IMG/VR virus record: IMGVR_UViG_3300046501_000132
Location: 106,685-170,684 of that record
Reading direction: 5' to 3' (one strand)
DNA from: a virus
Length of the DNA: 64,000 nucleotides
The stretch's first letter is position 1. Each line of letters begins with the position of its first letter. Made by a program: the position numbers and the translations under genes. Positions 4,665-49,543 of the stretch are shown piece by piece. A model generated the notes under the pieces. It ran no database searches. It was not told the origin of the DNA and was given only the letters and a program-made list of their open reading frames with translations.

Positions 4665-4665
4665 T

Positions 4666-21168: not shown

Positions 21169-21299
21169 GGTAGTCCCTCCACTCGTATCTTCCCAATCGA
21201 GAATTCCCAACCCCAAGAGTTGCGAATATCCTCAAGTCTGATGGATTCATGATAGACAGCATATACATTACTACCCGCTGTTACGACCCAGACATGCAT
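21165..21299 (-). CDS. Small hypothetical protein, 44 aa
   Basis: Begins MHVWVVTAGSNVYAVYHES at an ATG overlapping the TelA stop (TAATG). Probably one beta-hairpin domain; too short to classify. Translationally coupled on both sides. Confidence 0.6.
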   Translation of the reverse strand: MHVWVVTAGSNVYAVYHESIRLEDIRNSWGWEFSIGKIRVEGLP

Positions 21300-22468
21300 T
21301 ACTTGCTCCAGCTCAACATTTCCGTCTTCATCTGCTCGCGCAGTTGATCGATCTTGGTCGAAGCGGCGGCGCGTTCCTGGCGTCCAGCTTCCTGGATCTG
21401 CTTCACTTGCTTGACCGAGTCGATCAGCTTGTTCTGGCAGTATTCCAGAGTCTCGACATCAACCACCGAGCGTTCGGATGCCTTTGCCACTGCAATTGCG
21501 TTCATATTATTCAAATCTGCCGCCTTCTTGAAGAATTCGTTTGTTTTATCGTCCATAGCGGACCCGATCTCAGCGTTTTCCTTCTGCTTCAGCTTGATGA
21601 TCGTGAGGCTGATCTGCTTCTTCCAGGCCGGAATCGTCGTATTGATCAGATCGTTGAACTTCTCCACCATCGCCACATTGCCGGTCTGAATCTGACGGAT
21701 TTCCGGCGCGGTCAGAAGAGCAATCTGCTGCATTCGCTTCAGACGGTCGATCTGCTTTTCCCACAGCTTGATCCGCTGCTCGAATTCGTTGACCGCCTGA
21801 ATCTCAAACTGATCGGTCGAACTCTCCGCGTGTGCTTTCTGAACCGCATAGTCTTGGTTCATTTCGACCAGGAGCGCCTGAGCCGCTTCGATGGAGTTAC
21901 CCAAGTCGTGGTATTCCTGGAGATTCTTCTCATACAGGTCTTCCAGGAACTTGTTGTCGGAGCGCATCGCGTCTTGACGCTTCTCCAGATCGGACACGAC
22001 CTTACCAATGGAAGTGCTCGTGTCTTCGAACTTCGCCAGGACTTCAACCTTTTTCTTCTTGGCCGAGCCAATCAGCTTGCTCAGGAAGCCCTTATTCTTG
22101 TCCATGTTCAGATCATCGACTTTGACCTGGCTCGTCAGCGCGAGAATCTGGGTGATGCCATCACCAAACTCGCCCATCTTGCCAGTTGTCGTTCTCTGAA
22201 GGATGACGTCCGAAAGGCGCGCGACTTCCTTACCGGCTTCAGTGCCAAACTCGCTGATGGTCATCTGATCCTTGACGCCCCGCGCTTTGGACAGTTTCTG
22301 CCCGACCTGGGCATTCAGAATTGGAACCGTTGCCGGGAGATTCCGAACCGGGTCAATTCCATCAGTGTAATTGCCCAACACCTTCATCGGAGCGACTTGC
22401 GGGGCCTCGGCCATCATGACCTTGTTTTCGACTTTCGGCTCATTACCGAACATACTTGCATAAGACAT
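21299..22468 (-). CDS. TelA-family (toxic anion resistance) protein, 389 aa
   Basis: ATG 22468 (MSYASMFGNEP) with AAGGAAAC upstream. Helical, with the TelA hallmarks: GFLSKLIGSAKKKKVEVLAKFEDTS (F-x-K/L-F-G-K), QRIKLWEKQIDRLKRMQQIALLTAPEIRQIQ and a long C-terminal coiled coil. TelA proteins associate with Ter stress systems. Part of the gene block from 29.2 to 21.3 kb that also encodes TerD, TerC-like and vWA proteins. Confidence 0.88.
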   Translation of the reverse strand: MSYASMFGNEPKVENKVMMAEAPQVAPMKVLGNYTDGIDPVRNLPATVPILNAQVGQKLSKARGVKDQMTISEFGTEAGKEVARLSDVILQRTTTGKMGEFGDGITQILALTSQVKVDDLNMDKNKGFLSKLIGSAKKKKVEVLAKFEDTSTSIGKVVSDLEKRQDAMRSDNKFLEDLYEKNLQEYHDLGNSIEAAQALLVEMNQDYAVQKAHAESSTDQFEIQAVNEFEQRIKLWEKQIDRLKRMQQIALLTAPEIRQIQTGNVAMVEKFNDLINTTIPAWKKQISLTIIKLKQKENAEIGSAMDDKTNEFFKKAADLNNMNAIAVAKASERSVVDVETLEYCQNKLIDSVKQVKQIQEAGRQERAAASTKIDQLREQMKTEMLSWSK

Positions 22469-22478
22469 TTTGTTTCCT

Positions 22479-22730
22479 TTATTGATAGTAGGGTGTAGAA
22501 ACACAGCCGACGACCGAATATTTCAGCGACCTCTTGGGAGGAAGCTCATCGATGTATTGGTGGTCAAACAACCAATTCCGAATCAGTTCCGCCGCGACTT
22601 CATCCTTGGCGTAGAACAGCGCAGGCCATTGGATGCATGGGATATAGTCATTAATGAACCGCTGCCCAAGACGCTGGTGATCCTCTTTCTTGCGTTCATG
22701 GATCTCCAACAGGATATCAAGACTCTGCAT
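22479..22730 (-). CDS. Hypothetical protein, 83 aa
   Basis: ATG 22730 in the end of the upstream gene. Starts MQSLDILLEIHERKKEDHQR; helical. Ter-block passenger, function unknown. Confidence 0.6.
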   Translation of the reverse strand: MQSLDILLEIHERKKEDHQRLGQRFINDYIPCIQWPALFYAKDEVAAELIRNWLFDHQYIDELPPKRSLKYSVVGCVSTPYYQ

Positions 22731-23067
22731 CGACAATCCCCAACTTGTTACGAACCCAGGCAAGACGCTTTTCGTTCGTATGGGCCTTATGCTTCGTTCC
22801 CTCTTGAATATAGTGGATCATATCTTCATTGAATGGATAGGATTGGCTCAGACCATCATCCTTGAGCATGTCCTGAAGTTCCGTCCCCACTCGACCATAG
22901 TGCCAATCACCCAAGTTGGCTTGGTTTGACCAAAAATAAAGATTAGAACACAGACCGTAGCCACGAGAGAAATTCTTGGATTTCAATCCATAATCTCCCG
23001 CCAAGGGCGCGCCGGACTCCACCCATGTAATGTAGGCCGTCAGAAACTGCTTCATCAAATCAGACAT
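22717..23067 (-). CDS. Hypothetical protein, 116 aa
   Basis: ATG 23067 overlapping the upstream gene end (MSDLMKQFLTAYITWVESG). Pattern SRGYGLCSNLYFW is reminiscent of small phage proteins of unknown role. Ter-block passenger. Confidence 0.62.
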   Translation of the reverse strand: MSDLMKQFLTAYITWVESGAPLAGDYGLKSKNFSRGYGLCSNLYFWSNQANLGDWHYGRVGTELQDMLKDDGLSQSYPFNEDMIHYIQEGTKHKAHTNEKRLAWVRNKLGIVDAES

Positions 23068-23284
23068 CAGAATACACCCTTCCCGGAACCGGCTCAAAGC
23101 CAGCAAGTTGTACATGAGTTCCCCAGAAAGTCCGATAACCTTGACCGATCACGCAATAATAGCAGATCGCATGGTCTACGAACTCCGGAAACCGTTTCAG
23201 AAACTCAGCTGAATGTACATCATTCAGTTGAATCTTGTAAGCGTCACCCGCCTTTGTGTTAGCGAGGATTTCATCCAGCGTCAT
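23060..23284 (-). CDS. Hypothetical protein, 74 aa
   Basis: ATGA overlap with the 275-aa gene. Starts MTLDEILANTKAGDAYKIQL; soluble. Unrecognised. Confidence 0.6.
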   Translation of the reverse strand: MTLDEILANTKAGDAYKIQLNDVHSAEFLKRFPEFVDHAICYYCVIGQGYRTFWGTHVQLAGFEPVPGRVYSDV

Positions 23285-24108
23285 AGAATCCCCTTGAGAG
23301 CCTTGGAAATATCCTCCAGCCCATCCTTCCCGCTGATCATGGAGTTACGAATCACGTTCTCCACGAGAGGGATGATAGTCATCCCGAGTTCATCGGCAAA
23401 CGTATCACTATCGGACAGCGACTTCTCCATCTGTTCCAACTGGCTCTTGTTAAGAACCATCAGAGACAGAGATTTGGCAAACATTTCCTTGCGCTTCAGA
23501 GCCAAGTCCTTGACCATCTGATCCGGATTCTTCACCGCAACGTAGTTCAGAGTATTGACGGTGTTATCCAAATCCACATACAATCGGTTCAGAATCAACT
23601 TGGCACCAGAGAGTCCGTCCAGGAAAGGCTTAATATGAATTTTGGCCAGTTCCTGATATTTCCTCATCGCCGCGTCTAGCTTCGATTTTACCTCGTTTCG
23701 CACCTGAGCGGGGTCGGTCTTAGATGAGCGTAGGAAGCCGAAAATACCCGCGCCCTTACCGGAGGACTCGATTAGCTGTAGCGCCTCCAGGATGAGCGTT
23801 TTAGGCTCATTTAGCATAGTCTTCAGCTGAGCGAACTCGGTAACGACGTTATCAACACAGCGGTTCGCTTCGGTCGCTTCGGAGACGTGCCAATCGCCAA
23901 CGTCGCTGATGTCGGTGACTGCCAGTTTGGCGACTTCTTTCCCATTGAGAATAAAGTCAACTCGCGTCGAAGTGGTTGTGAGATTATTTTCCTTCAACCA
24001 GGCTTCGATGTCATCAAACCGGGAGTTGCTTTGCTTCGTTTCACCAAACAGATTCATTTTCTTGTCCACCACCCCGTTGGAATCTCCGAACAGGTTCTTG
24101 TAGCTCAT
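23281..24108 (-). CDS. Helical protein of the Ter block, 275 aa
   Basis: N terminus MSYKNLFGDSNGVVDKK shares the MSYxxxFG start and spacing with the TelA protein. The rest is helical (LNEPKTLILEALQLIESSGKG, GIFGFLRSSKTDPAQVRNEV) and loosely TelA-like in composition, so it may be a diverged TelA or a partner. TGATG coupling with the zinc-ribbon gene. Confidence 0.65.
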   Translation of the reverse strand: MSYKNLFGDSNGVVDKKMNLFGETKQSNSRFDDIEAWLKENNLTTTSTRVDFILNGKEVAKLAVTDISDVGDWHVSEATEANRCVDNVVTEFAQLKTMLNEPKTLILEALQLIESSGKGAGIFGFLRSSKTDPAQVRNEVKSKLDAAMRKYQELAKIHIKPFLDGLSGAKLILNRLYVDLDNTVNTLNYVAVKNPDQMVKDLALKRKEMFAKSLSLMVLNKSQLEQMEKSLSDSDTFADELGMTIIPLVENVIRNSMISGKDGLEDISKALKGIL

Positions 24109-24305
24109 CAGTATCTCTGAGTTGTTACTTCGTTACCGCAAGGAGGGCACTTGATGAACTTGTGGACGTCGGCCCCTCCACCAATATCCCTCGAAGTATG
24201 AGTTTGGATATCAGCCGGAACATATTCCAACGTTGCTCCACAATTACGACAGATGATCTCTTTGACCACAGACGGATGCGGAGTTGCATTAACTACACGG
24301 ACCAT
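24108..24305 (-). CDS. Zinc-ribbon protein, 65 aa
   Basis: ATG 24305 with GAGGAAAT upstream. Two CxxC knuckles (ICRNCG near residue 20, KCPPCG near 52) form one zinc ribbon. Small, possibly an adaptor for the Ter-block proteins. Confidence 0.7.
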   Translation of the reverse strand: MVRVVNATPHPSVVKEIICRNCGATLEYVPADIQTHTSRDIGGGADVHKFIKCPPCGNEVTTQRY

Positions 24306-24312
24306 TATTTCC

Positions 24313-24657
24313 TCACTTGCACTTACGTTCGATTTCAGCCACAACGCGGTCGATCACGCCTTGCGGATCGGGAGTCAGAACCCGGACGCTGTTATAGCGA
24401 CCAAAGTAATAGGTCACACCCGAATCACCGTCCACTTCACGCTTCCCGCCGCTGATGTAGGAAAGAGTATTGGCGTTGATGTACGTGCCAGAAGCCGTCA
24501 CCTTGATCAGACATGGGCGACCACCACCTTCAGTGCGCGGCGTATATTCGTCTTGCGGGTGGGAAATACCCTTACCAAAAGCGGGAGCAACCATCGTGAA
24601 GAACACGAGAGTTAGAGCAGCGGTCCAGATGATGAGTTTGCGGAGAGCTTGGTCCAT
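24313..24657 (-). CDS. Secreted/periplasmic protein with signal peptide, 114 aa
   Basis: ATG 24657, GAGGATT upstream. Residues 1-28 form a Sec signal (KLIIWTAALTLVFFTMVAPAFG, cleavage likely after AFG). Mature part has two Cys that could form a disulphide and a beta-rich core (YINANTLSYISGGKREVDGD). Exported from the infected cell's cytoplasm; role unknown. Confidence 0.7.
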   Translation of the reverse strand: MDQALRKLIIWTAALTLVFFTMVAPAFGKGISHPQDEYTPRTEGGGRPCLIKVTASGTYINANTLSYISGGKREVDGDSGVTYYFGRYNSVRVLTPDPQGVIDRVVAEIERKCK

Positions 24658-24659
24658 AT

Positions 24660-25103
24660 TCAATCCTCGTAATAGTCAAAGAAATCATCAAGATCATCCG
24701 GATCATCATAGAAACGATCCGGATTTTCCGCATTCCAGGCCAACGCGGCCTTATGATATTTCACAGCGGCTTCGCGGGTCAGACAGAGACGGTTGGTGTT
24801 ATGGTTCGTACCAATTCCGCAGTCACCTAACGAGCGCCAACAATCGGAGTGACGGCCGTGATGATCATACTCGCGGGCGTAGACCCAGTTGCTACGTAGA
24901 TCAAAGTCGCTGTGCCCCATCGGATTTCCTTTAGCGAACCGATGATTCCGATAGCTTTGTGGAATCTGGAGAATCTTCACTTTTTGGGGTTCACCCCACA
25001 GGTGTCCATAGACGTGCCAAAGCACTACGCCAGGCTTGATATCATCATATTTGGCGATACCCTTGCAAACAGTATCCGGATGGGGCAGCAACTTATTATC
25101 CAT
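24660..25103 (-). CDS. Hypothetical protein, 147 aa
   Basis: Starts MDNKLLPHPDTVCKGIAKYD. Rich in His, Trp and Asp, with an all-acidic C terminus (DDPDDLDDFFDYYED). First gene after the 25.1 kb promoter region. Unrecognised. Confidence 0.62.
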   Translation of the reverse strand: MDNKLLPHPDTVCKGIAKYDDIKPGVVLWHVYGHLWGEPQKVKILQIPQSYRNHRFAKGNPMGHSDFDLRSNWVYAREYDHHGRHSDCWRSLGDCGIGTNHNTNRLCLTREAAVKYHKAALAWNAENPDRFYDDPDDLDDFFDYYED

Positions 25104-25131
25104 TATACATTCTCGTTTAGTCGATAGGTCT

Positions 25132-25137
25132 ATTATA
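25132..25137 (-). promoter_or_regulatory. -10 box (TATAAT) of a possible promoter
   Basis: Perfect TATAAT upstream of the 25103 gene, but no TTTACT or TAGACT at the usual distance. It follows the terminator at 25175-25214. Confidence 0.4.
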
Positions 25138-25174
25138 CTATGGATCCATACTTACGGGGATAATAACCCTAAAA

Positions 25175-25214
25175 GAAAAAGGGGGAATGTCTATGACGAC
25201 ATTCCCCTTTTTCT
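25175..25214. terminator. Strong hairpin terminator
   Basis: AAAAGGGGGAATGTC/GACATTCCCCTTTT (one G bulged) with A- and T-runs; ends the vWA / 20-aa peptide unit on the minus strand. Confidence 0.85.
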
Positions 25215-25222
25215 TGATACAT

Positions 25223-25285
25223 TTACTTCTTCACCCAACCATACCACACAAGTGCTGCACCACAGATAAATCCGATAATGAACAT
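25223..25285 (-). CDS. Tiny transmembrane peptide, 20 aa
   Basis: MFIIGFICGAALVWYGWVKK, ATG three bases after the vWA gene stop (TAAGTAATG) and before the terminator. One membrane span with a positive C terminus. Placement in a Ter operon and a second similar peptide at 26395 support it being real. Confidence 0.5.
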   Translation of the reverse strand: MFIIGFICGAALVWYGWVKK

Positions 25286-25288
25286 TAC

Positions 25289-26320
25289 TTAAACTCCGTT
25301 AGGCCAATAGAGAACAGCCGAACCTTCAAAGAGTTTCCGATTTGTGGATGTCGACTGAACATAAATCACAAACGAACCGTGATCACCAGGATTGATCTTG
25401 CAATCGCCATAGTGAGGCAGACCCATCAGATCACGAGCAGCGGCACCTTCATACACAGCGCCGGACTTCTTGTCCTGGATGATGATCTTCTTGTAGTCCT
25501 GAACCTTCCGTTCGGGCTTCACCAGTTCATAGAAACCAGCGCCCTTGGTATAACTACCCTTGATGCGACGTTCACAGAAGTCCTTGATCTGATCGCCATC
25601 TTCATCTTCGGACACCGGCCAGATAGACACTTCCTTGGAAATATCGGTCAACACCTTCTTGACGTCAGAAGCCTTCACTTGGGACATATCGGTGTAGAAA
25701 CTGGAAACCGACTTCGCACCCGAAGCCCGCGCCGCGTAGAAGCCCTTCATAGCGGTCGTGGTCGCTTGGGTGGCAACTTCCATACCACGAGCCGAATTGG
25801 TATCCCATTCCAGCACATTCCCTTCCGGTAGGCCAAGATCGCGCATCAAGCGAGACTTATAGCCGCGCGGAACCCGGAACACGAAGGTCCAGCGGTCGGT
25901 AGATTGCAGCTGTCGAATCAGACGACCCAGCGACGCGCCGGTGTATTTACGCGAAGAATTGTCTTCCCCATCGGTCGTCACCATGATCAGAAACGAAGTG
26001 GTTTCATCGTTCACGTCCGGGACATCGTTAAATTGCTCGATCAGAACACCAACCGAGTCGTATAGCGGAGTGCTCGAACCATCGGCAGCATAGCTGGACA
26101 GCGGAGTCAGGGCGGTCACGCTCGACAGTTTGGTTTCAAAGACATTCCCAGCCGGACGGCCAGTACCACACTTCACCACTGATACAATCGTATCCTGGTT
26201 ATGGGCAATCGCTTCTTCCTTGATCGAAGACACGTTTGCATTATAGTCACGCATCGCCGCCGTGGTAATATGACCCATCGAAGCCGAGTGATCCCGGCTC
26301 AAACCAATATAATTACGCAT
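25289..26320 (-). CDS. vWA-domain protein of the Ter block, 343 aa
   Basis: N-terminal vWA domain with MIDAS motif DHSASM (residues 10-15), the Thr region and VTTDGED near 117. Such vWA proteins (TerY-like) occur in tellurite-resistance-type operons. C-terminal about 100 residues (DQIKDFCERRIKGSYTKGAG) form a second domain I do not recognise. SD AAGGAAAAT upstream. Confidence 0.8.
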   Translation of the reverse strand: MRNYIGLSRDHSASMGHITTAAMRDYNANVSSIKEEAIAHNQDTIVSVVKCGTGRPAGNVFETKLSSVTALTPLSSYAADGSSTPLYDSVGVLIEQFNDVPDVNDETTSFLIMVTTDGEDNSSRKYTGASLGRLIRQLQSTDRWTFVFRVPRGYKSRLMRDLGLPEGNVLEWDTNSARGMEVATQATTTAMKGFYAARASGAKSVSSFYTDMSQVKASDVKKVLTDISKEVSIWPVSEDEDGDQIKDFCERRIKGSYTKGAGFYELVKPERKVQDYKKIIIQDKKSGAVYEGAAARDLMGLPHYGDCKINPGDHGSFVIYVQSTSTNRKLFEGSAVLYWPNGV

Positions 26321-26364
26321 GTTGCTTATTTTCCTTATTCAATACTAACAACTCACACAAAGAG

Positions 26365-26396
26365 AAAGCCGCTCGACAGGAGCGGCTTTTTGTTTT
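26365..26396 (-). terminator. Intrinsic terminator
   Basis: AAAGCCGCTC/GAGCGGCTTT-type stem after the TerD / 21-aa peptide unit. Confidence 0.75.
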
Positions 26397-26460
26397 ACAT
26401 CTTCATGATGGCGTATACAAAGATCAGCGCCATGATGATAATGAAGACTTCGTTGGACAT
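26395..26460 (-). CDS. Tiny transmembrane peptide, 21 aa
   Basis: MSNEVFIIIMALIFVYAIMK..., ATG overlapping the TerD stop (TAATG), followed by a terminator. Single hydrophobic helix. Similar in size, position and nature to the peptide at 25223. Confidence 0.5.
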   Translation of the reverse strand: MSNEVFIIIMALIFVYAIMKM

Positions 26461-27065
26461 TAGTAGCCCGGAACCTTGTAGGCCTGGAAGAAGTCTTGCA
26501 GACCCTTGTTGAAGCCCTCACCAACCGCTTGCATCACCCACTCGCCGCTGCTGTTCTTCTTGAATTCCACGAACATCATAGCGGTGGCTGTCGATGCGTT
26601 CTCGTCCAGATCGTACTCCGCGAGGCACGTATTGTTCACGTCGTAAATCTTGGCGTAGGCGTCATCCACCTGGCCGAAGTTTTGACGGCGATTGACTGCG
26701 TCGTGGATCGTCACGATCACGGTAGCCCGCGAGGCTTCAGCCGGCATCTTGCTGAAGTCGACCACGATCTGTTCATCGTCGCCATCGCCATTACCCGAGC
26801 GATTGTCGCCGCTGTGCTTCGCCACGCCACCAGGCAGTTCCTTTTGACCGTAGAAGCAGACCCAGCCATCGTCAGCGGTCGGCAGAGTCAGCACACGGCC
26901 GAACGGGGTTCCATCTTCCTTGAGGATGAACAGCGTTGCGTCCAGGTCGAAGTCTTGTTGCGTGTCGAACTTCTTGGGAGTCCAACCCAGACCAATGGTT
27001 GCAACCTTCAGACCGAATTCCTTGCTGAGATTCAGCTTACCACCTTTTTCAAGCGAGAGAGGCAT
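26460..27065 (-). CDS. terD: TerD-domain protein, 201 aa
   Basis: ATG 27065 (MPLSLEKGGKLNLSKEF). Contains TerD signatures GLGWTPK, DFDLDATLFIL, and the acidic Ca-binding loop NGDGDDEQIVVDFSKMP, then VTIHDAVNRRQNFGQV. Length equals bacterial TerD (about 190 aa). TerD proteins bind calcium and are core to Ter stress operons linked to tellurite, colicin and phage resistance. Confidence 0.93.
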   Translation of the reverse strand: MPLSLEKGGKLNLSKEFGLKVATIGLGWTPKKFDTQQDFDLDATLFILKEDGTPFGRVLTLPTADDGWVCFYGQKELPGGVAKHSGDNRSGNGDGDDEQIVVDFSKMPAEASRATVIVTIHDAVNRRQNFGQVDDAYAKIYDVNNTCLAEYDLDENASTATAMMFVEFKKNSSGEWVMQAVGEGFNKGLQDFFQAYKVPGY

Positions 27066-27137
27066 TTCCAATTCCTTGTTACGTTTCGAGAAACGGGCGG
27101 GTTATCCGCCCATTACATAATTATACTGCGTTTCTAC

Positions 27138-28148
27138 TTACGCCGCTACTGCATTCGTATGACGATTAGCGATGAAGCTATGAACTACGGACACCGCCAG
27201 AATCGCCGCAGCAACCCCACCCGTCAGGATTTCGTGGATTTCGAACTTGGTTGCCAGGATCATCATCAGAGCCAGCGAACCGATGGACCAGAAGGCACCG
27301 TGTTCCAGGAACTTGAGCGAACCAAGCGTACCAGCATCGACCATATGAATCGTCATCGACCGGACGAACATTGCACCAATCGCCAGACCGAGGGTAACGA
27401 TGATGATCTGGTCGGAGATTGCAAAGGCGCCAATCACACCATCGAAAGAGAACGAAGCATCGAGCACGTTCAGGTAGCAGAACATACCAAAGCCATTCGC
27501 AGCGGCGCCGGCAGTATTCTTGCTTTCGAGGACATGTTGCAGCAAATGCACGAGCATCCAGGTCACCACACCAGCAATCGCCGCGTATTGGAATTCCATG
27601 ATATGGTCGGTCGGCACGATCATGATCGACAGGATCGCCAGAATGCCCATACCCACGAGTACCAGACCGAGCGTGCCAGCCTTACCCAAGAAGGTCATCA
27701 GCGGTTCGATACCAGGGATCCAGTGATGTTCCTTTTCTTGATCCATGAAGAAAGCCAGGAATACCATTAGCAGGAAGGCACCGCCATAGCCGGCAATCTT
27801 CGTATGTGCCGCTTGTACCGTGGCAGCATAGTTGGCCGCATCCTGGAACGGTAGAGCGAAGGATTGTCCCAGACTCAGAGAACTCGTGGCGTACACGATC
27901 AGGATCGGGAACAGGAAGCGAACCGCGAACACGGAGAACAACATACCCCACGTCAGGAACCGCTTTCGCCACTTATCGTCCATATCCTTCAGAATTTTGG
28001 CGTTCACTACAGCGTTGTCGAGGGACACCGAGACTTCCAGCAGACCGAGAATCGCAGCGGTCAGTGCGCCGACCGGACCATAGAACCAACCGCATACCGC
28101 GATTGCAACGACCGTGAAGATCGCACTTGCTTTGTAATACTTGAACAT
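27138..28148 (-). CDS. TerC-like integral membrane protein (DUF475), 336 aa
   Basis: About nine membrane segments. The two internal repeats LLEVSVSLDNAVVNAKIL (about 37-54) and VLDASFSFDGVIGAFAI (about 228-244), with conserved D-N and D-G in the membrane, are the TerC/DUF475 signature of metal-ion exporters. In Ter operons TerC anchors the complex at the membrane. Adjacent to TerD. Confidence 0.88.
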   Translation of the reverse strand: MFKYYKASAIFTVVAIAVCGWFYGPVGALTAAILGLLEVSVSLDNAVVNAKILKDMDDKWRKRFLTWGMLFSVFAVRFLFPILIVYATSSLSLGQSFALPFQDAANYAATVQAAHTKIAGYGGAFLLMVFLAFFMDQEKEHHWIPGIEPLMTFLGKAGTLGLVLVGMGILAILSIMIVPTDHIMEFQYAAIAGVVTWMLVHLLQHVLESKNTAGAAANGFGMFCYLNVLDASFSFDGVIGAFAISDQIIIVTLGLAIGAMFVRSMTIHMVDAGTLGSLKFLEHGAFWSIGSLALMMILATKFEIHEILTGGVAAAILAVSVVHSFIANRHTNAVAA

Positions 28149-28175
28149 TTCAGTTACCTTTGATGATTGAAGGGT

Positions 28176-28859
28176 TTACTTCTTGATCCAGTTGCAGAAT
28201 TCCTCGCACAGCAGGGCTTCGTACATCACATCGTCGCTCGTTGCTTCCAGATCGGGGAAGGTCACGAAGCCCACGTGATCATACTTGTCGGCCATACGCT
28301 TCAGGAAATCGAAACGCTCACGACCGATGCCGATCAGTTGCACGTAGGTATTCGCTTCACCCAGGAGCACGATCTGCTTTTCGGCTTCGATGGAGGAACC
28401 TTGATCTTCACCATCCGTAATGAACATCAGGTATGACGGTGCATCAACGGTCTTCTTGCCGAACAGACCGCCGAGGAAACCCGACTTCTTGGCGCTGCTG
28501 TCCTTGCGAATCTGGTTCATCGCAATGGCGTATTCCGTACCGGACCACAACACCCCACCGGCTTCACGGAGGAACTTGTTGCTCACGTAGGAACCGAAGT
28601 CATCCGGCGTCACATCGTTCATCTTTTGGATGGACGAACCGAATGCGTAGGATTCGATGGATTGGTTATCATCGAAGCGCATTGCAACCGGAATCAGACG
28701 GTCCACCAGTTCCGACATCACACCGCTGCGATATAACGGGCGCGCCGAACCGGACACATCCAGCGCCATCTTGACAGCCAGCTTGATGTCGGTCGGAACC
28801 TTGCGCTTTTCCAGGCAGAGGCGAACCAGTTCTTGTTTCTTTTCGAGATTGAGAGGCAT
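28176..28859 (-). CDS. vWA-domain protein, TerF/TerY-like, 227 aa
   Basis: MIDAS DVSGSA near residue 34, then FITDGEDQGSS near 146. The charged N-terminal helix KKQELVRLCLEKRKVP is as in TerF C-terminal domains. Ends YDHVGFVTFPDLEATSDDV, typical of the TerF vWA family. Located between TerC-like and the 113-aa gene. Confidence 0.85.
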   Translation of the reverse strand: MPLNLEKKQELVRLCLEKRKVPTDIKLAVKMALDVSGSARPLYRSGVMSELVDRLIPVAMRFDDNQSIESYAFGSSIQKMNDVTPDDFGSYVSNKFLREAGGVLWSGTEYAIAMNQIRKDSSAKKSGFLGGLFGKKTVDAPSYLMFITDGEDQGSSIEAEKQIVLLGEANTYVQLIGIGRERFDFLKRMADKYDHVGFVTFPDLEATSDDVMYEALLCEEFCNWIKK

Positions 28860-29308: not shown

Positions 29309-29548
29309 TTATGTTTCCAACTTACTCAGCTTCAGGGGAATTCCCTTGTATGAATAATAAGACTTGCTAAAACTATGATATACATTAGCCAATCCATCTT
29401 CCATCAGCCCGGAGAACTCTTCAAGGAAAGCCCTTGTCTCTTGTATATCCAACTCTATACACTCAACAGGATGATCTCTCATCCTCTGGACCATCTCATA
29501 CTCTTTTGCTAATTCTTTAGCAATGTCAATCTTGTAGATAATACGCAT
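29309..29548 (-). CDS. Hypothetical protein, 79 aa
   Basis: ATG 29548 overlaps the helicase stop (TAATG). Starts MRIIYKIDIAKELAKEYE; helical. Last gene of the helicase operon, function unknown. Confidence 0.65.
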   Translation of the reverse strand: MRIIYKIDIAKELAKEYEMVQRMRDHPVECIELDIQETRAFLEEFSGLMEDGLANVYHSFSKSYYSYKGIPLKLSKLET

Positions 29549-30963
29549 TATCCAAAATCCCATCCGCCCGTACTAGGCGCAGCATCGTCACCAGCGCGAC
29601 GACTAATCATTTGACCCGCCGACTGAGGTTTGATCTCGTTAGGAAGACCAAGTTCAGCCAGTTCCTCTTCAGACAACCCTGCCGCCTGACTATCTACTTC
29701 ATAGAACTTCTGTTTATCCGGATTCAACCCTAGAACAAACTTACCCTTATAGCTGCTATATCGGTTCTTGATGATCTTACCGATTACCATCCCTCGCGCC
29801 GCCATTTCTTCCGGAGTAAGAATTGCGAACATAAAGTCAGCAGTAGCAGCAATACCAATAGCCAGAGAGATATTGCCCATACCCGCATCTGATGCACCTT
29901 GAGTCGCTCGATCAAACTGTACCGCAGTCCAGATCGGCACACCGGCTTCTTGAGCAAAGGCGCGAATCTCTTCAGCCACGCTCGTGAAGTACGTATTCGT
30001 GTTACCCTTGGCGCTTGCCGGCAGCTTCGAACTTGCACAGATCGTCAGATAGTCGATACAGATCATATCTGGAACGAACTTCTTCTTGATCTTCAGTTCT
30101 TGTAGAAGATGTCGGAAGTGACCCACGTGGGCCGTGCCTGCCGGGAATTCCTTAACAACCAAACGTCCTGCGGACTTACGCTTGAGCTCATTGATTCGGT
30201 TCATATATTGAACCTTCTGCAATGAGAAGACTTGGTCGAAAGTCATATCCATGTTACATACGTCAATTCGCTCACGACAAGTCATCTCATCCATTTCCAT
30301 AGAAATGTACAAGACGTTCTTACCGCGCATCAACCATTCAGACGATTGCTGAATTAGGTGAATCGACTTACCACCATTGATCGGGGCGAGTACAACGTTC
30401 AGAGTCTTATCCTTGATACCGTTCTTGGTAACTCGGTTCAGAATCTCTAGGGCGAAGGGGTGACGTGCATGCTCAGAGTGCAACGTATCATAATGAGTCT
30501 CAGAGTCTTCCCAGTAATCGTGACCGATATGACTATCAAAACTAACCGATAGCGCCTCCATCAACATACCAGGAATAATATTAGGGTCGGCTTCCTTATT
30601 GTTACCTTCTGCAATATCAATAGCTTTATACATTGCATTGAACAATGCCGAGCGTTTACAATGCTGTTCGGTCTCATCAACCAACCATTGGAACGAGGGT
30701 TCATCCGGGTCTTTATCCATCCCCTTGATTACGCACAGAACTTCCTCAAAGAATCCCTCATGGAGATTCGAATTCGTGACCCCAATAGCTAATGCCTCCT
30801 TAGTTGGAGGTACGGTATACTTCGAGACAAACTCTTTGATCTGCTTGAAGACAAACTTATCAGCTTCGCCACTGAAGTAATCTTCTTGCAAGAACGGCAG
30901 AACGGTTCTTAGATATGATTCATTATGAAGCAAGTTGGTGAGGATAACTCTCTCGATGGCCAT
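29548..30963 (-). CDS. 41: Replicative DNA helicase, gp41-like (DnaB family), 471 aa
   Basis: ATG 30963 (MAIERVILTNLLHNESYL) overlaps the HNH stop (TAATG) and matches the N terminus of T4 gp41. Walker A appears as LAPINGGKS (T4 MAGVNVGKS), followed by NVLYISMEMDEMTCRERID, nearly identical to gp41, Walker B-like DMICIDYLTI and VPIWTAVQFDR (sensor Gln). The N-terminal scaffold domain is present. Forms the hexameric helicase of the replisome. Confidence 0.93.
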   Translation of the reverse strand: MAIERVILTNLLHNESYLRTVLPFLQEDYFSGEADKFVFKQIKEFVSKYTVPPTKEALAIGVTNSNLHEGFFEEVLCVIKGMDKDPDEPSFQWLVDETEQHCKRSALFNAMYKAIDIAEGNNKEADPNIIPGMLMEALSVSFDSHIGHDYWEDSETHYDTLHSEHARHPFALEILNRVTKNGIKDKTLNVVLAPINGGKSIHLIQQSSEWLMRGKNVLYISMEMDEMTCRERIDVCNMDMTFDQVFSLQKVQYMNRINELKRKSAGRLVVKEFPAGTAHVGHFRHLLQELKIKKKFVPDMICIDYLTICASSKLPASAKGNTNTYFTSVAEEIRAFAQEAGVPIWTAVQFDRATQGASDAGMGNISLAIGIAATADFMFAILTPEEMAARGMVIGKIIKNRYSSYKGKFVLGLNPDKQKFYEVDSQAAGLSEEELAELGLPNEIKPQSAGQMISRRAGDDAAPSTGGWDFG

Positions 30964-31457
30964 TAAATGTGTCTCCACGTCTTTCGATTAACGATAGCAG
31001 AGATTGCATCTTGTCCAACCCCATACTTACTTGCTAGGTGCGTTTGCTTAGCCCCATCTTTATATTGTTCACGAATTTCTAGAACGTCCGCTTCAGTCAA
31101 TTTTGCCCTACCATTCTTTGAACCATTTCCAGGATTTGTGTAATATTCGCCCCGTCTATCTCTACCGCGAAAGAACATATCATCCACATTATCCTGTTGA
31201 GTTCCCCAAACCAAATGTCTCGGATTACAACAAGCAGGGTTATCACAACTATGTCTAGCCACCAACCCTTGAATATTGGAAGCTAGAAACAACGAAACCC
31301 GGTGGGCCGGGTAATTGCGATTTTGAATCCGTATCGAACCATAGCCGTTGATTTTTCCGGAGGTCCAATTCCAACATTCATTATCTGTTTTGATGTTTAC
31401 CTTCTCCCAGAACCGCTTGATATCATTCTGAGTCAGTTCTGGTATAGGATTAGCCAT
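30963..31457 (-). CDS. HNH homing endonuclease (free-standing), 164 aa
   Basis: Contains CWNWTSGKINGYGSIRI, YPAHRVSLFL, VARHSCDNPACCNPRHL (HNH with Cys/His zinc site) and a C-terminal helix-turn-helix (THLASKYGVGQDAISAIV). This architecture is the common phage HNH_3 plus HTH homing endonuclease. Inserted between the gp40-like and gp41-like genes, with its start 8 bp inside the former and its stop on the latter's ATG. Confidence 0.9.
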   Translation of the reverse strand: MANPIPELTQNDIKRFWEKVNIKTDNECWNWTSGKINGYGSIRIQNRNYPAHRVSLFLASNIQGLVARHSCDNPACCNPRHLVWGTQQDNVDDMFFRGRDRRGEYYTNPGNGSKNGRAKLTEADVLEIREQYKDGAKQTHLASKYGVGQDAISAIVNRKTWRHI

Positions 31458-31820: not shown

Positions 31821-32924
31821 TCAGCTGAGGATTTCGCCCGTTTCCGAATCTACCTCTTGATAGTCTGGCTTACGACCAACATCCTCTTCAACCGCAGTAT
31901 TAGCCAGATCGTACTTGAATCGCACGTATTCCTTGAACTCTGCGTTCTTTACTAGGGCATCAAAGAAGTCCTGACGGTTTTCTTCAATATCCTTACGACG
32001 ATACGACTTACCGTCAATGAAGCCATCTAGGTTAAACTGATAGAAACCTTGTTTCTCAGACTTCAGATGTCCCGACTCCATAGCCCAATCGAACAGACCA
32101 GAATTCTGATAGATACCGCCTTCATAGGTAACGATCAAGCTGAACTTAGACTTCTCACGCACATAGCGGGACTTGAAAGCTGTGTAGTTGAAACTCCAAC
32201 CCTTCAGTTCCTTATCATCCTTTACTTGAGCGCGGGTAACCATCAACACCACGTCAGAAGAAAGGAATACTTGTTTACCGCCCTTGATAGTCGGTTCGGC
32301 GTATTGATTAACCATACTATCGTAGTATGAGTTGATCGCAAAGCACGGAATCTTCTTCAGCATCAGCTTAGGGGTGATGATACGGAAGAAAGAGTTGAGC
32401 TCACGAGCACGAGTCAAGTCGGCGGCTGCGTTTTCGTTCAATGCATTTTCCACTTCCTTCTTGGAAGCGATTTGAGAAATCGAGTCGATGAACACGAATA
32501 CCTTACCGGCAGAGGATTCGTCAATTTCATCTAGAGCCTGAGTCATCTTGAACTTCAGGTCTTCGATATTCTCTAGAGCGTAGTGGATAACCCGGCTTTG
32601 ATCAATACCGCGAGCTTCAAAGCACTTCTTCGCGCCGAACTCAGAGTCAAAGAACAAAGCGATGTTCTCTGGATCTTCATCCAGGAAGTCGCCCATCAGG
32701 TCTACGCAGAAGTTGGTCTTGAAGGTACGCGAGTCCCCCACGACCAGATAGATACCGGGACGAACACCGCCGTCAATATAACCAGATAGCATCTGATTAA
32801 TCAGCGGAGTCTTCGAACGGAACACGATGTCCTTATCAAAGAAAGACGAACTGTCCAGAACCGTTACCTTGTTGTCCTTAGCGGCCTTCTTCAGAAGCCT
32901 GGACATGAGACTATTTGCTGCCAT
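31821..32924 (-). CDS. uvsX: UvsX recombinase (RecA family), 367 aa
   Basis: Walker A GDSRTFKT (T4 GPSKSFKS-type), Walker B GKVFVFIDSIS, and loops as in UvsX: KEVENALNENAAADLTRARE and CFAINSYYDSMVNQYAEPTI. Length about that of T4 UvsX (391 aa). Strand exchange in recombination-dependent replication. SD AAGGAATT. Confidence 0.93.
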   Translation of the reverse strand: MAANSLMSRLLKKAAKDNKVTVLDSSSFFDKDIVFRSKTPLINQMLSGYIDGGVRPGIYLVVGDSRTFKTNFCVDLMGDFLDEDPENIALFFDSEFGAKKCFEARGIDQSRVIHYALENIEDLKFKMTQALDEIDESSAGKVFVFIDSISQIASKKEVENALNENAAADLTRARELNSFFRIITPKLMLKKIPCFAINSYYDSMVNQYAEPTIKGGKQVFLSSDVVLMVTRAQVKDDKELKGWSFNYTAFKSRYVREKSKFSLIVTYEGGIYQNSGLFDWAMESGHLKSEKQGFYQFNLDGFIDGKSYRRKDIEENRQDFFDALVKNAEFKEYVRFKYDLANTAVEEDVGRKPDYQEVDSETGEILS

Positions 32925-32968: not shown

Positions 32969-33562
32969 TTAATGAATTGTATGCAGCGTGAGATCTTCAA
33001 GCAGGTCTGGGTCTACCGCCTCAGCGAGTTGTTGAACGGTCTTGACTAGACCATTAACATTCACGTAAGAATGTAGATACGTTTGGAGCATTTCATAACG
33101 ACGTTGAACAGCTTGTACGGCCATCGTATTGGTACCCACCGCGTCAAGCACCCCATTGAACTGAGAAAGCGTAATTGAATAATTACGATTCTGTTCTTGA
33201 ATCTTGTTATGGAGATAGAGATTTTGTTGCTTGAGTACGGCAATTTCATTACCTTCCTCGACAACCACCTCAACTCTCGCATCACCAAAAATCATATCAA
33301 GGACATCTTCTTCATCCTCGACACAACCATCATTCACGGCATCAATCTGCACTAGACAAGTATTTAACTTATCGGTTTCGACACGTAGAGTCACCCGGCC
33401 CACCGCATAGGAACCATTCGGGCCTTCAGTCGTCTCGACTTGCTTCTCACTTGCGTCGCAGTCCCAAGATTCGATATCAACATTGGCAGCTAGGAGTTCA
33501 GCATATTTCTGGACCCCCTCCAAATTCACGGCAGACAGATCTACGAAAAGTGTGGTCAACAT
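32969..33562 (-). CDS. Hypothetical protein, 197 aa
   Basis: Starts MLTTLFVDLSAVNLEGVQKY. Middle acidic (DGCVEDEEDVLDMIFGDA), then a coiled coil (VLKQQNLYLHNKIQEQNRN). No family recognised; upstream of uvsX in the replication operon. Confidence 0.65.
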   Translation of the reverse strand: MLTTLFVDLSAVNLEGVQKYAELLAANVDIESWDCDASEKQVETTEGPNGSYAVGRVTLRVETDKLNTCLVQIDAVNDGCVEDEEDVLDMIFGDARVEVVVEEGNEIAVLKQQNLYLHNKIQEQNRNYSITLSQFNGVLDAVGTNTMAVQAVQRRYEMLQTYLHSYVNVNGLVKTVQQLAEAVDPDLLEDLTLHTIH

Positions 33563-33570: not shown

Positions 33571-34161
33571 TTAATTCAGGGTCAGCGGAGTTTCCTTGGA
33601 CTTATCATAAGTCCCAGCTTGTTGTCCGCCTTCAACACGCTTTTGATTCTGAGCATTCTTGAGATAGTATGCCTTGGTGATATCGCCTTCATTCAGTCCG
33701 ATCAGAACCGCGCCAGTCTCAATCAGATTGAGTAGGCTAATCAGCGCCCGGAATTCATTCTCATTATAGATTGATTCGATGAAGTTGTATTGGGCCTTAG
33801 CAAAGTACAGATGTTTATCCTCATACTTCCCATACATAGTCGTTTCGACTTGTTCGTTTTTCAACAAGTCTTTGATATACGATAGATCGTTGTTCAGAAG
33901 GACAAGAAGCATCGCAAAATGCACAGCATCGATCAGTTCGAATGCCGCTTTGTCTTTGTCGATAGGGACAGCAAGCGCCTTGCCGGACCACCACTTCCAG
34001 GTCGAACGGATTTCCTCAGCGAACTCAGCAACTTCCGTTTGGAAGGCAAAGATCGCCTGTCCCTTCATCACAGTCTTACGCCATTCTGGACCGTTATACT
34101 TGATATTCAGAGCCTCTTGGGCTTCGAACATCTCAATCAGGTCCATCTTATCGAAAATCAT
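33571..34161 (-). CDS. 56: dUTPase/dCTPase (all-alpha NTP pyrophosphatase, gp56-like), 196 aa
   Basis: Helical, with the all-alpha NTPase metal-binding pattern E-x-x-E in FAFQTEVAEFAEEIRSTWKWWS and E-x-x-D in AFELIDAVHFAMLLVL, as in dimeric dUTPases and T4 gp56. In T4 the homologue destroys dCTP and dUTP so that the modified base is used and feeds the TS-like enzyme with dUMP/dCMP. ATGA overlap with the kinase gene. Confidence 0.82.
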   Translation of the reverse strand: MIFDKMDLIEMFEAQEALNIKYNGPEWRKTVMKGQAIFAFQTEVAEFAEEIRSTWKWWSGKALAVPIDKDKAAFELIDAVHFAMLLVLLNNDLSYIKDLLKNEQVETTMYGKYEDKHLYFAKAQYNFIESIYNENEFRALISLLNLIETGAVLIGLNEGDITKAYYLKNAQNQKRVEGGQQAGTYDKSKETPLTLN

Positions 34162-35042
34162 AGCGCTCCTTCTTGATGTATGAAGGAATAGAAGAAACGA
34201 TCAAACTCAGCCGTCCCATTCATTCGATTAATGAATAGTTGATCATAATCCTTGAACTCACGAACATACTGTTCGAAGTCCGAAGGGGGCAGGCCATCCC
34301 GGCTTTCACGTTCGATCTTCAGAACCGGGATACCAACGTCCTGAATGAATTCCCATTCCTGTGGAGTCCGGAAGTCCGTAATGATAAACAGCTTATCAGG
34401 ATTATAGCACTCGTCCAGAGCGTTCCAGTTGTTATCTTCGAACTTATGAACAAAGAAGTGCGGATCAACGTCACGAACCTTACCGACCGTCAACCAGATT
34501 TGGCGTGGAGTTAGGTTATTCGGGTTCTGTGGATGTACAAACGGCAAATCCTTCTGCTCCGGGGTGATATCCATCGGGAGCCAAGGGAAGATTTGAGATG
34601 CAAGACGGCGCACCTCATCCGAAAAAGAAAGGCGCACCGCGCCCCGAGTTGCTACCAGATGATCACAAAAGAAGTCCTTGCCGCTTTTGTATTCACCCAT
34701 AAATGCTACGATCATTTTGCCTCTTTTAACTTGATAACTCTCATCGTAGATCCATCGTTCCCTCAGGTTTTGCTCCTTGGTGATAAATCTACAATTTCCC
34801 ACACGATAAACGCCTTCATCCCGATACCTTCCGAGTTGGTAAGAATCGGGTTCCAATCCAATTTGGTTCGCTCGCGTCAACCCGGCATCTACAGCTAACC
34901 GGGTGTACTGCTCAAACGTCAACTCACATTGTCTCTGGAGCCTAACTGCTCGTGCCTTTAGGTTTTGCCAATTCTTTAACCAGGCACGCAGTTCGCTAGG
35001 ATCCAGTCCAATGACTTTTAGATAGTTTTCACGAGCATCCAT
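34158..35042 (-). CDS. 1: dNMP kinase (gp1-like) with N-terminal HNH-like extension, up to 294 aa
   Basis: Residues from MIVAFMGEYKSGKDFF onward (ATG 34715) form a dNMP kinase: P-loop GEYKSGKD, LTPRQIWLTVGKVRDVDPHF, and KLFIITDFRTPQEWEF. AGAGG lies just before 34715, so the kinase can start there as a 186-aa protein. The frame continues upstream without a stop into about 100 residues ending GVYRVGNCRFITKEQNLRER, the C-terminal signature of phage HNH/AP2-type proteins. Starts at ATG 35042 or TTG 35069 (GAGGTG upstream) would give a fused protein. The kinase phosphorylates dTMP, dGMP and modified pyrimidine monophosphates in T4. Confidence 0.8.
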   Translation of the reverse strand: MDARENYLKVIGLDPSELRAWLKNWQNLKARAVRLQRQCELTFEQYTRLAVDAGLTRANQIGLEPDSYQLGRYRDEGVYRVGNCRFITKEQNLRERWIYDESYQVKRGKMIVAFMGEYKSGKDFFCDHLVATRGAVRLSFSDEVRRLASQIFPWLPMDITPEQKDLPFVHPQNPNNLTPRQIWLTVGKVRDVDPHFFVHKFEDNNWNALDECYNPDKLFIITDFRTPQEWEFIQDVGIPVLKIERESRDGLPPSDFEQYVREFKDYDQLFINRMNGTAEFDRFFYSFIHQEGAL

Positions 35043-35070
35043 CAACGCCTTGACCTCAGCCCGTTTCAAC

Positions 35071-36156
35071 TTACACCTCGATGTCGAATTTGCGGAATGA
35101 AGACAACTCGATGGCTCGAACCAATTCAACCGGGGCTTCAGTCAGATCAACAACCGCACTCAACTCAACACCCCGCTTCGCGGCGATATAATGAGCAACG
35201 AGTTGTGCATACACCCACATCAGGTTATTTTCAAGCGGAACGTTGTATTCCAAGAAGGTATGACCCAGATGAGAGATAATCGTGCTCAGAATGAACTCAG
35301 GCTCATCGGTCGTGATCGCTTCGATATATTGAGCAACCAGATCGCTGAAGAAAGCCTTCCATAGTCGAATCTCAGGGCCGATTAGCGGAACATCACTCTC
35401 ATCATACGAATTCGTATAGTTGGCGGAGATTTCGGTTGCATCATCCGCTTGACCCCGCGAAAAGTCGTATAGGTGGGCATTCGTCACGTGCCAGCGATAT
35501 GGGCCCAGCTTCAGTTGAGGGCTGCTCTTCTTGATCTCGTTGTACATCAACTCGTGAAGGAACGAGAACTCAAATGGATTGATCGAGCCGGTACCAAAGA
35601 TGATGTCGCCACTTCGCTGAATCACCTTAGTACAGAATTGATCTTCGCCTTCAACGTAGAAGTTGATACCCAAGTTACAGGGTCGATCCTTACCCAGTTC
35701 TCCGAAGCCGAACCGCTCTTCAATTGCCTTGGTCGAATCCTTATGAAGATCATGAATCGTCACATACGCACGGCGGGTATATAGACTATCTCGGATGAAC
35801 AGATCGGGGATAGACACCAACTGATTCTCATCATAGAATCGCGGGCCATAGGCACCGCTCCAAGTCTCACCATCATCCGAATACTGAGGCGCACGCGGGA
35901 GGAAGAAAGACAAGTAAGGATTCACACGATCATCACCGGCCATAACCCAGAAAGTCTCCGCGATTAGAGCGAAGATATTGGATTTGCGACCTTCAAGGTG
36001 TAGATGTCGGGATCGGGGATTGCCTAGCTCAAACGTTACGTCAAAGATAGACGTGCAACCACCGTTACGGGAAGGGCGATAATGGCCCTCATTGATAATT
36101 GTATTGAATGCTTCTAGAACAACTTGTGAAACGGTCCTGCCTCTTACCAGGTGCAT
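35071..36156 (-). CDS. Thymidylate synthase-fold enzyme (TS or dNMP hydroxymethylase), 361 aa
   Basis: TS family landmarks in order: TRRAYVTIHD (S/T-R-R), RPCNLGINFYV with the catalytic Cys, VIQRSGDIIFG (Q-R-S-x-D), SINPFEFSFLHELM, and RWHVTNAHLYDFSR (D/N-x-H-x-Y). The usual His after the Cys is Asn. The residue equivalent to E. coli TS Asn177, which is Asp in dCMP hydroxymethylases, is Ile or Asn depending on one-residue alignment. Longer than TS (264 aa). Neighbours dUTPase and dNMP kinase repeat the T4 42-56-1 logic, so hydroxymethyl-pyrimidine synthesis is a serious alternative to plain TS. Confidence 0.85.
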   Translation of the reverse strand: MHLVRGRTVSQVVLEAFNTIINEGHYRPSRNGGCTSIFDVTFELGNPRSRHLHLEGRKSNIFALIAETFWVMAGDDRVNPYLSFFLPRAPQYSDDGETWSGAYGPRFYDENQLVSIPDLFIRDSLYTRRAYVTIHDLHKDSTKAIEERFGFGELGKDRPCNLGINFYVEGEDQFCTKVIQRSGDIIFGTGSINPFEFSFLHELMYNEIKKSSPQLKLGPYRWHVTNAHLYDFSRGQADDATEISANYTNSYDESDVPLIGPEIRLWKAFFSDLVAQYIEAITTDEPEFILSTIISHLGHTFLEYNVPLENNLMWVYAQLVAHYIAAKRGVELSAVVDLTEAPVELVRAIELSSFRKFDIEV

Positions 36157-46977: not shown

Positions 46978-47297
46978 TTCATGGTGGTCGGTATTCAGAC
47001 GGTAGCATCATGAAGGTTGTTTCGGCTTACTATGGGATCGGATTAGGCCAAACCCGCAATCTAGGGCAATATGCTCGGTGTGACTCAGGGTATCCGACTG
47101 ACCAGACGTTTGGTTAGCGTAAGTGAGTGTGACTTGTAGAGAACAACGTTTGTAATCTCTACGCCTGACTGGCTCCGATACTGGGACCTGAGGCTTGATG
47201 AGCTACTGCCTTTGCTGGCAGGGCCATCTTTCGCCTTTCCTTCACCGTCCAGGGGATAAAAGAATAAAGCCCCTAGCGGATTAGGCTTAGGGGCTTC
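46978..47297 (+). ncRNA. Probable structured RNA (about 320 nt)
   Basis: Runs from the plus-strand promoter to the terminator at 47267-47297. No long ORF: only a 10-codon ORF at 46981 coupled by ATGA to a 35-codon ORF at 47010 (MKVVSAYYGIGLGQTRNLGQ). Contains a strong hairpin GTAGAGA/TCTCTAC (47137-47163) with an inner ACAA/TTGT stem, and CTGCC/GGCAG. No tRNA cloverleaf is found. A regulatory RNA or leader-peptide transcript is the best description. Confidence 0.5.
47267..47297. terminator. Terminator of the structured RNA (bidirectional)
   Basis: AAGCCCCTA/TAGGGGCTT stem; on the minus strand it lies just after the 34-aa gene. Confidence 0.75.
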
Positions 47298-47402
47298 TCA
47301 GAGAATCAGGGTTATTAGAAAGGCTACCAGACGTTCAGATAGCGTAGGAAAGGCTAGATAGACCGCTAGAGCGAGTCCCGCCAGTAGACCAACAACGCTC
47401 AA
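47298..47402 (-). CDS. Small membrane protein, 34 aa
   Basis: TTG start overlapping the upstream TGA (TTGA). Reads SVVGLLAGLALAVYLAF, then another hydrophobic stretch LVAFLITLIL: one or two membrane spans. Translationally coupled. Confidence 0.5.
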   Translation of the reverse strand: MSVVGLLAGLALAVYLAFPTLSERLVAFLITLIL

Positions 47403-47746
47403 GCCGGAACCCTCCGACGATGATAACCTGAGCTAGTAGCGGCTTGTTCAGACTGAAACTTTAAGTCGGCCAAGCGAATCTTATCCCGCTCGATAACCCG
47501 GAACATTTCCTTGATCTCCGCGATACGAGGCTCACCAAAGAGTAATTCCTCAATATCGTAATACGCGATCACTTGGGAATAGTTCATGATCGCTTCGGGG
47601 TAGACGGAAAAGGCTGTCTTGTAATTTCCCTTTCGGATAGCCTCTTCAAACTGTTCTTGGTAGAGTTTCCCGCTCTCCAAGTGGTCAGCTATTCGCTGCT
47701 TGAGTTGGTCCCTGACGGAACCGATAAGATTTGATATTTCAGACAT
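47399..47746 (-). CDS. Hypothetical helical protein, 115 aa
   Basis: Starts MSEISNLIGSVRDQLKQRIA, GGAGATATACC SD. All-helical with a basic C terminus (GYHRRRVPA). Unrecognised. Confidence 0.66.
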   Translation of the reverse strand: MSEISNLIGSVRDQLKQRIADHLESGKLYQEQFEEAIRKGNYKTAFSVYPEAIMNYSQVIAYYDIEELLFGEPRIAEIKEMFRVIERDKIRLADLKFQSEQAATSSGYHRRRVPA

Positions 47747-47775
47747 GGTATATCTCCGCGCTGCTGGGCGCGTTT

Positions 47776-47805
47776 AGTATAGCCCTGAAAGCTCATGAGA
47801 GTCTA
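47776..47805 (-). promoter_or_regulatory. Promoter (TAGACT-18-TATACT)
   Basis: Its upstream TTTTACGTATAGACT block resembles the plus-strand promoter at 46943. Confidence 0.65.
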
Positions 47806-47810
47806 TACGT

Positions 47811-47840
47811 AAAAACCCCTAGCGGGTTAGGCTAGGGGCG
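47811..47840 (-). terminator. Intrinsic terminator
   Basis: CCCCTAGC/GCTAGGGG stem followed by TTTTT on the minus strand, after the 88-aa gene. Confidence 0.8.
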
Positions 47841-47856
47841 TCGTGACTTGGTGAGA

Positions 47857-49524: not shown

Positions 49525-49543
49525 TCTTATTCTCTCCAACGAT

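Follow-up and report, generated by a model that had tools for sequence, protein, structure and literature searches.

A predicted 5-hydroxymethyldeoxyuridine precursor cassette of the PhiW-14/Vi01 type in an IMG/VR virus record

The hypermodified thymidines published for Delftia phage PhiW-14 (alpha-putrescinylthymine) and for the Kuttervirus Vi01 (5-(2-aminoethoxy)methyl-2'-deoxyuridine, 5-NeOmdU) derive from 5-hydroxymethyl-2'-deoxyuridine (5hmdU). In cells infected with PhiW-14, 5hm-dUTP is present and dTTP is absent, and a phage-specific synthase makes 5hm-dUMP (PMC5977210). In the case of CBA120, a relative of Vi01, Kutter et al. reached the 5hmdU reading from the same genes and from the observation that thymidine is not incorporated, and they proposed dTTP as a further target of the dUTPase (PMC3184105). 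In the DNA of PhiW-14, M6, and Vi01, a 5-hmdU DNA kinase is believed to phosphorylate 5hmdU, with substitution following (PMC6449724). Here we analyzed a stretch of 64,000 nucleotides (the window) corresponding to bases 106685-170684 of the 170,684-base virus record IMGVR_UViG_3300046501_000132, labeled G000, the ends of which are open, so that the record may be incomplete. Positions are those of the window unless G000 is specified. At 33571-36156, three adjacent genes on the minus strand encode a protein with the thymidylate synthase (TS) fold, a monophosphate kinase, and a pyrophosphatase. This triad is a further case of the known PhiW-14/Vi01-type 5hmdU cassette, and we estimate at about 85% the probability that it makes the precursor of a thymine-derived modified DNA.

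Substrate and product of the TS-fold enzyme

The gene at 35071-36156 (minus strand) encodes a protein of 361 amino acids (aa), predicted to be a TS-fold dUMP hydroxymethylase, which matches the phage TS-fold family phrog_3676 (E=1e-85). Its counterparts in PhiW-14, Serratia phage MAM1, Acinetobacter phage nACB2, and Vibrio phages are 39-42% identical over 99% (42% in the case of PhiW-14 gp230). The closest hydroxymethylase in viral contigs (50%) is carried by a 165,148-base record, G001; this search yielded no match with a single-sequence query and gave relatives with an alignment query. The original prediction had proposed a profile alignment to TS, SPO1 gp29, and T4 gp42 as a check, and in this comparison (hhalign) the best match was SPO1 gp29 (E=7e-44), annotated in databases as a dUMP hydroxymethylase, followed by Escherichia coli ThyA (2e-19) and T4 gp42 (1e-10). 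In a maximum-likelihood tree, which has long branches and an unsure deeper branching order, the protein groups with those of PhiW-14 (gp230), nACB2, and G001 (support 96/92), apart from ThyA and T4 gp42. The AlphaFold model has a mean predicted local distance difference test (pLDDT) score of 94.2, and its top structural match is the hydroxymethylase MilA (Z 32.5, as compared with about 22 in the case of ThyA).

The position equivalent to Asn177 of E. coli ThyA, which governs uracil selectivity, had been described as ambiguous by one residue. The spacing on which this was based does exist: a one-residue insertion precedes Asn193 in this protein, in SPO1 gp29, Goe10 gp29, M6, Vi01, and PhiW-14 gp230, and in all the other phage homologues tested, and the ambiguity arose because the Asn expected eight residues past a conserved Asp is shifted by one. 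It is settled by the alignment and by hhalign, which pairs Asn193 (codon 35578-35580, minus strand) with E. coli Asn177; Asn193 is invariant among 26 homologues. Asn is found at this position in TS and in dUMP hydroxymethylase, and Asp in the cytosine enzymes, namely Asp179 in T4 gp42 and Asp186 in MilA (PMC5175136), where the Asp fills the role of Asn177 (PMC8670742). The residue found here is thus not the Asp marking the T4-type dCMP hydroxymethylases, and the 361-aa protein is very probably a uracil-type hydroxymethylase making 5-hydroxymethyl-dUMP rather than a cytosine enzyme. A dCMP hydroxymethylase, giving a phage DNA with 5-hydroxymethylcytosine (5hmC) as in T4, would be in line with the fact that MilA, the top solved-structure match, is a CMP hydroxymethylase, with the Asp shared with T4 gp42 that is described below, and with the presence of a glycosyltransferase (GT)-like operon. 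It is extremely improbable, however, since Asn193 stands where the cytosine enzymes have Asp, of the three families tested, that of T4 gp42 lies farthest from this protein, and the neighborhood is that of the 5hmdU phages; residue 193 and the neighborhood led us to reject the T4-like 5hmC reading.

The second informative position is Asp157 (codon 35686-35688, minus strand), located three residues N-terminal of the catalytic nucleophile Cys160 (35677-35679, minus strand), which is invariant and corresponds to T4 Cys148 and to the catalytic Cys of ThyA. Asp157 is equally invariant: Asp occurs here in 26/26 homologues, in SPO1 gp29, and in T4 gp42, and apparently also in MilA. Its place is taken by Leu in E. 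coli ThyA and in the RL38J1 TS. In T4 dCMP hydroxymethylase, the equivalent Asp145, three residues before Cys148, has been proposed to activate the water molecule that becomes the hydroxyl (PMC6400193). This published mechanism, taken together with the position of Asp157, suggests that the product carries a hydroxymethyl rather than a methyl group. That the protein might be an ordinary TS making dTMP, the cassette serving plain nucleotide metabolism, would fit the common fold, the conservation of the ThyA Cys, Arg, Ser, Asp, Asn, His, and Tyr residues, and the name "thymidylate synthase" given to this family in PHROGs and in many GenBank records. This is nevertheless very unlikely, because the hydroxymethylase-type Asp157 replaces the Leu of ThyA, ThyA is far more distant by profile than SPO1 gp29, and a 5hmdU chemistry has been published for the phages that encode the closest named relatives; in addition, an HMUDK_hel gene is present in the record (see below). 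The original prediction had kept both dCMP hydroxymethylase and TS open; Asn193 now points to uracil and Asp157 speaks against a plain TS. The two positions (Asn at the Asn177 site and Asp at the third residue preceding the catalytic Cys) make it possible to read the substrate and the chemistry in a family that is often misannotated.

Organization of the cassette and predicted pathway

The three open reading frames (ORFs) are all present and tightly packed on the minus strand, and the family matches (phrog_3676, phrog_139, and PF08761/phrog_173) bear out the functions and the clustering originally proposed. The deoxynucleoside monophosphate (dNMP) kinase ORF, including an extension, runs from 35069 (TTG) or 35042 (ATG) to 34158, which leaves a gap of 1 nt or 28 nt, respectively, after the hydroxymethylase stop, and the stop codon of the kinase and the start codon of the dUTPase overlap (ATGA). 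Because of this overlap and the short gap, the three genes are likely to form a single transcription unit. The claim that they lie under one promoter fared less well: a promoter-like match occurs 5' of the cassette at 36224-36196, but the cassette region contains 10 such matches versus 9.0 +/- 3.4 in shuffled sequence, so these sites do not constitute evidence for one promoter.

The kinase matches phrog_139 (E=4e-31), and its core, a predicted 5hm-dUMP kinase (34158-34715, minus strand), starts with MIVAFMGEYKSGKD. It is 44% identical to its G001 orthologue and 39-42% identical to those of PhiW-14, MAM1, and Vi01, and the P-loop motif GEYKSGKD is conserved among the orthologues. The score obtained with the Pfam family DNMK (PF21448) is sub-threshold (16.5 bits), and the match with T4 gp1 (hhalign, E=4e-6) concerns the C-terminal half. 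An in-frame N-terminal extension of about 118 aa (34716-35069, minus strand) is missing from all seven orthologues aligned. Elsewhere, this domain forms an ORF of its own, adjacent to the primase in Vibrio phages and to the topoisomerase in a sister phage, G011 (116,826 bases; median protein identity 69% over 102 proteins), which spans bases 1-117 kb of G000, without the cassette region; it shows a weak match with the HNH family phrog_374 (E=0.03). The extension probably represents a mobile domain that was captured by fusion to a metabolic enzyme, and the internal ATG at 34715 could serve as an alternative start giving a kinase without it.

The third gene (33571-34161, minus strand) encodes a dimeric-type dUTPase (all-alpha NTP pyrophosphatase) of 196 aa, which matches dUTPase_2 (PF08761, E=1e-19, 71.8 bits, cut-off 22.9) and phrog_173 (E=8e-24). 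The metal-binding motif E43xxE46...E75xxD78 is invariant in six orthologues, the nearest solved structure is the dUTPase 1w2y (E=3e-4), and the hhalign match with T4 gp56 (E=5e-7) lies in the C-terminal half. Next come a small ORF to which no function was assigned (32969-33562, minus strand) and a UvsX-like recombinase (31821-32924, minus strand; phrog_97, E=6e-70; 49% identical to PhiW-14 UvsX), which closes the conserved gene order. The order hydroxymethylase, dNMP kinase, dUTPase_2, small ORF, and UvsX is found in PhiW-14, MAM1, Vi01, Vibrio phage D506, and G001. Among 78 IMG/VR loci carrying the hydroxymethylase, which include many related phages and are thus not independent, the kinase is adjacent in 27, the triad is present in 25, and the triad plus UvsX in 22. 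This gene order is beyond chance and, as judged from the sequences compared, is conserved in Ackermannviridae-like phages. An ORF read from its sequence as HNH-endonuclease-like (30963-31457) lies between a helicase gene (29548-30978) and the UvsX side.

Based on its active-site residues and its family, the 361-aa enzyme would use methylene-tetrahydrofolate as the donor of a one-carbon unit, which it would attach to C5 of dUMP. In this step, Cys160 would attack C6, Asn193 would select uracil, and a water molecule activated by Asp157 would quench the exocyclic methylene, so that 5-hydroxymethyl-dUMP rather than dTMP is formed. The gp1-like kinase might then phosphorylate 5hm-dUMP towards 5hm-dUTP, and the dUTPase_2-type pyrophosphatase might remove dUTP, and perhaps dTTP, returning dUMP and excluding the unmodified base. 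The phage polymerase would place 5hmdU in the DNA instead of T, and part of it may be converted further, HMUDK_hel being present. A dCMP-deaminase-like protein encoded at 6234-6653 (plus strand; PF00383, E=1e-9) could be a source of dUMP; another deaminase-like ORF is located outside the window (G000 80373-80894).

Genes for further modification of the base

Of the genes linked to 5hmdU hypermodification, HMUDK_hel (PF18723) is the only one recognized in G000. It lies outside the window, at G000 77575-78642 (domain 77653-78519), with a match above the cut-off (E=3e-65), and is 80% identical in the sister phage G011. HMUDK_hel was found in 12 of the 14 relative records, that is, in 11 of 13 viruses, since PhiW-14 was counted twice (G009 and W01); these include PhiW-14, Vi01, and M6, but not SPO1 or G010. 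Two GenBank records name the Ackermannviridae form aGPT-Pplase1. Matches with ADDT (PF18724) occur in 11 of the 14 records, that in G001 being below the curated cut-off. G001 carries the 5-hmdU DNA kinase (52% identical to PhiW-14 gp36), ADDT, and HMUDK_hel.

The 5hmdU reading is based on the invariant Asn193 and Asp157, the SPO1 gp29 profile match, the tree, the shared gene order, the presence of HMUDK_hel, and the fact that no match with the ThyA or ThyX families was found anywhere in the G000 record. Other points weigh against it. No match between the 361-aa protein and Pfam Thymidylat_synt (PF00303) was obtained, either with hmmscan or in the search of the G000 record; the substrates of the kinase and the pyrophosphatase were read only from their context; no match with ADDT over the threshold was found in the 170.7-kb record, which may be incomplete, and a locally built ADDT profile with the filters off matched only the HMUDK_hel protein (17 bits); and no 5-hmdU DNA kinase was found in G000 with PF18748 or with the kinase part of phrog_800, and locally built profiles with the filters off gave the same result. 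The last two are weaker than they appear, because the record ends are open and PF18748 also misses the kinase of PhiW-14 itself. The modified pyrimidine originally predicted in this phage DNA is thus upheld, very probably in a uracil/thymine rather than a cytosine form (Asn193), and HMUDK_hel is what was recognized of the hypermodification. Since no DNA kinase or ADDT is recognizable, the final base cannot be predicted from the genes.

The phage might stop at 5hmdU, as SPO1 does, without any further hypermodification. This possibility, which we take to be the less probable outcome, is consistent with the lack of a recognizable 5-hmdU DNA kinase and of ADDT over the threshold in a record of this length, both of which G001 has. 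The retention of HMUDK_hel, which is missing in SPO1, argues against it, as do the unclosed ends of the record and the fact that a divergent kinase could have escaped detection, the P-loop candidates being located at G000 2135-2698 and 61618-62097. The latter, a polynucleotide kinase (PNK)-like protein, was rejected as the 5-hmdU DNA kinase: it matches phrog_2071 and polynucleotide-kinase families, adjoins an RNA ligase, and more likely serves RNA repair. The RNA ligase and its PNK-like neighbor (G000 60705-62097, outside the window) are likely an RNA repair pair. The former is an AAA_28 P-loop kinase-like protein, also outside the window, whose relatives lie just 5' of the dNMP kinase or the hydroxymethylase at four loci (L025, L026, L034, and L045). 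It was not established as a replacement kinase, since at least one phage carrying such a relative also has the PF18748 kinase; it is possibly an extra kinase of the pathway.

The GT operon to which the original prediction pointed as a sign of hypermodified DNA does exist elsewhere in the window (1588-5109, plus strand), but no evidence was found tying it to the DNA, and it lies 30 kb from the cassette; the link is a candidate one. The operon encodes a weak GT-like protein (1588-2865, 0.097), a PIG-L-like protein (2869-3432, E=0.022, sub-threshold) with an H-x-D-D start and an H-x-H farther along, a clear GT4-like protein (3393-4664, Glyco_transf_4, E=5e-8), and a HAD-like protein; the fourth protein resembles phrog_1238. 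All four are kept in G011 (80, 89, 70, and 66% identical), the PIG-L-like protein (89%) being the most conserved of the proteins listed in that comparison. A search for GT2 by peptide patterns in viral contigs gave no match, though G011 does carry it, the copy in G011 having been missed by the patterns. The fact that a single conserved operon encodes GT4-like, GT-like, and PIG-L-like proteins might suggest that 5hmdU is glycosylated, perhaps with an amino sugar. We consider this unlikely, since the operon is on the opposite strand to the distant cassette and adjoins an ORF taken as tail-related, no GT4 or PIG-L-like match was found in 50,697 annotated phage records, and the structure model of the first GT-like protein has a low confidence (pLDDT 32). 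Besides, surface glycans or small molecules are the usual targets of GT4/PIG-L sets.

It can also be tentatively proposed, with a low but somewhat greater probability, that a standard 5hmdU cassette is combined with an undescribed finishing route, in which either the Vi01-type HMUDK_hel is supplied by a replacement kinase or a sugar or amino sugar is added via the GT/PIG-L-like operon, which would result in an undescribed thymidine derivative. The lineage has the 5hmdU precursor genes without recognizable copies of two of the usual finishing enzymes, and is thus a candidate both for such a derivative and for asking what HMUDK_hel does alone.

Relationships to described phages

Many of the replication and structural genes of G000 match those of PhiW-14, and on the basis of these sequences the record can be placed as a distant relative of this phage and of the Ackermannviridae. 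At the nucleotide level, no relative of the 16 kb around the cassette was found among the 50,697 phage records. A relative of PhiW-14 gp99 (DUF1768) occurs at 62966-63517 and is probably the source of a NADAR match (E=3e-38). Outside the window, two adjacent genes (G000 47244-49779), read from their sequences as those of a nicotinamide phosphoribosyltransferase and a nicotinamide mononucleotide (NMN) adenylyltransferase, are possibly an NAD-restoring pair directed against host defense. The minus strand of the window carries a tellurite-resistance-type set (21299-28859), with a TelA match and proteins read, from their sequences alone, as TerD-, TerC-, and TerY-like.

PhiW-14 has the identical cassette order in genes 230-234. 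It differs from G000 in that it carries a phrog_800 kinase (gp36) and an ADDT relative (gp109), neither of which was found in G000, and in that its dNMP kinase is devoid of the N-terminal extension; it also has HMUDK_hel, which is only 24% identical to that of G000. The cassette order is likewise identical in Vi01/CBA120, and the G000 HMUDK_hel is nearest to the Ackermannviridae type (36-41%), whereas Vi01 has ADDT as well as a PF18748 kinase, encoded immediately 5' of the hydroxymethylase, neither of which was detected in G000. Bacillus phage SPO1 belongs to another phage group: its gp29 has both signature residues of the 361-aa protein (Asp and Asn) together with the one-residue insertion, in addition to the strong profile match, but SPO1 shows no HMUDK_hel or ADDT match, and the surroundings of gene 29 revealed no kinase-dUTPase cassette. 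The division of labor between T4 gp42, gp56, and gp1 (C5 hydroxymethylation, pool cleaning, and monophosphate kinase, respectively) is analogous, and all three proteins show remote profile similarity with those of the cassette. T4 acts on cytosine (Asp179), however, and its genes 42, 56, and 1 are scattered (about 25.5-26.2, 16.3-16.8, and 74.6-75.4 kb). T4, on which the original prediction was modeled, is therefore less apt a model than PhiW-14 and Vi01, which carry the same cassette in published form.

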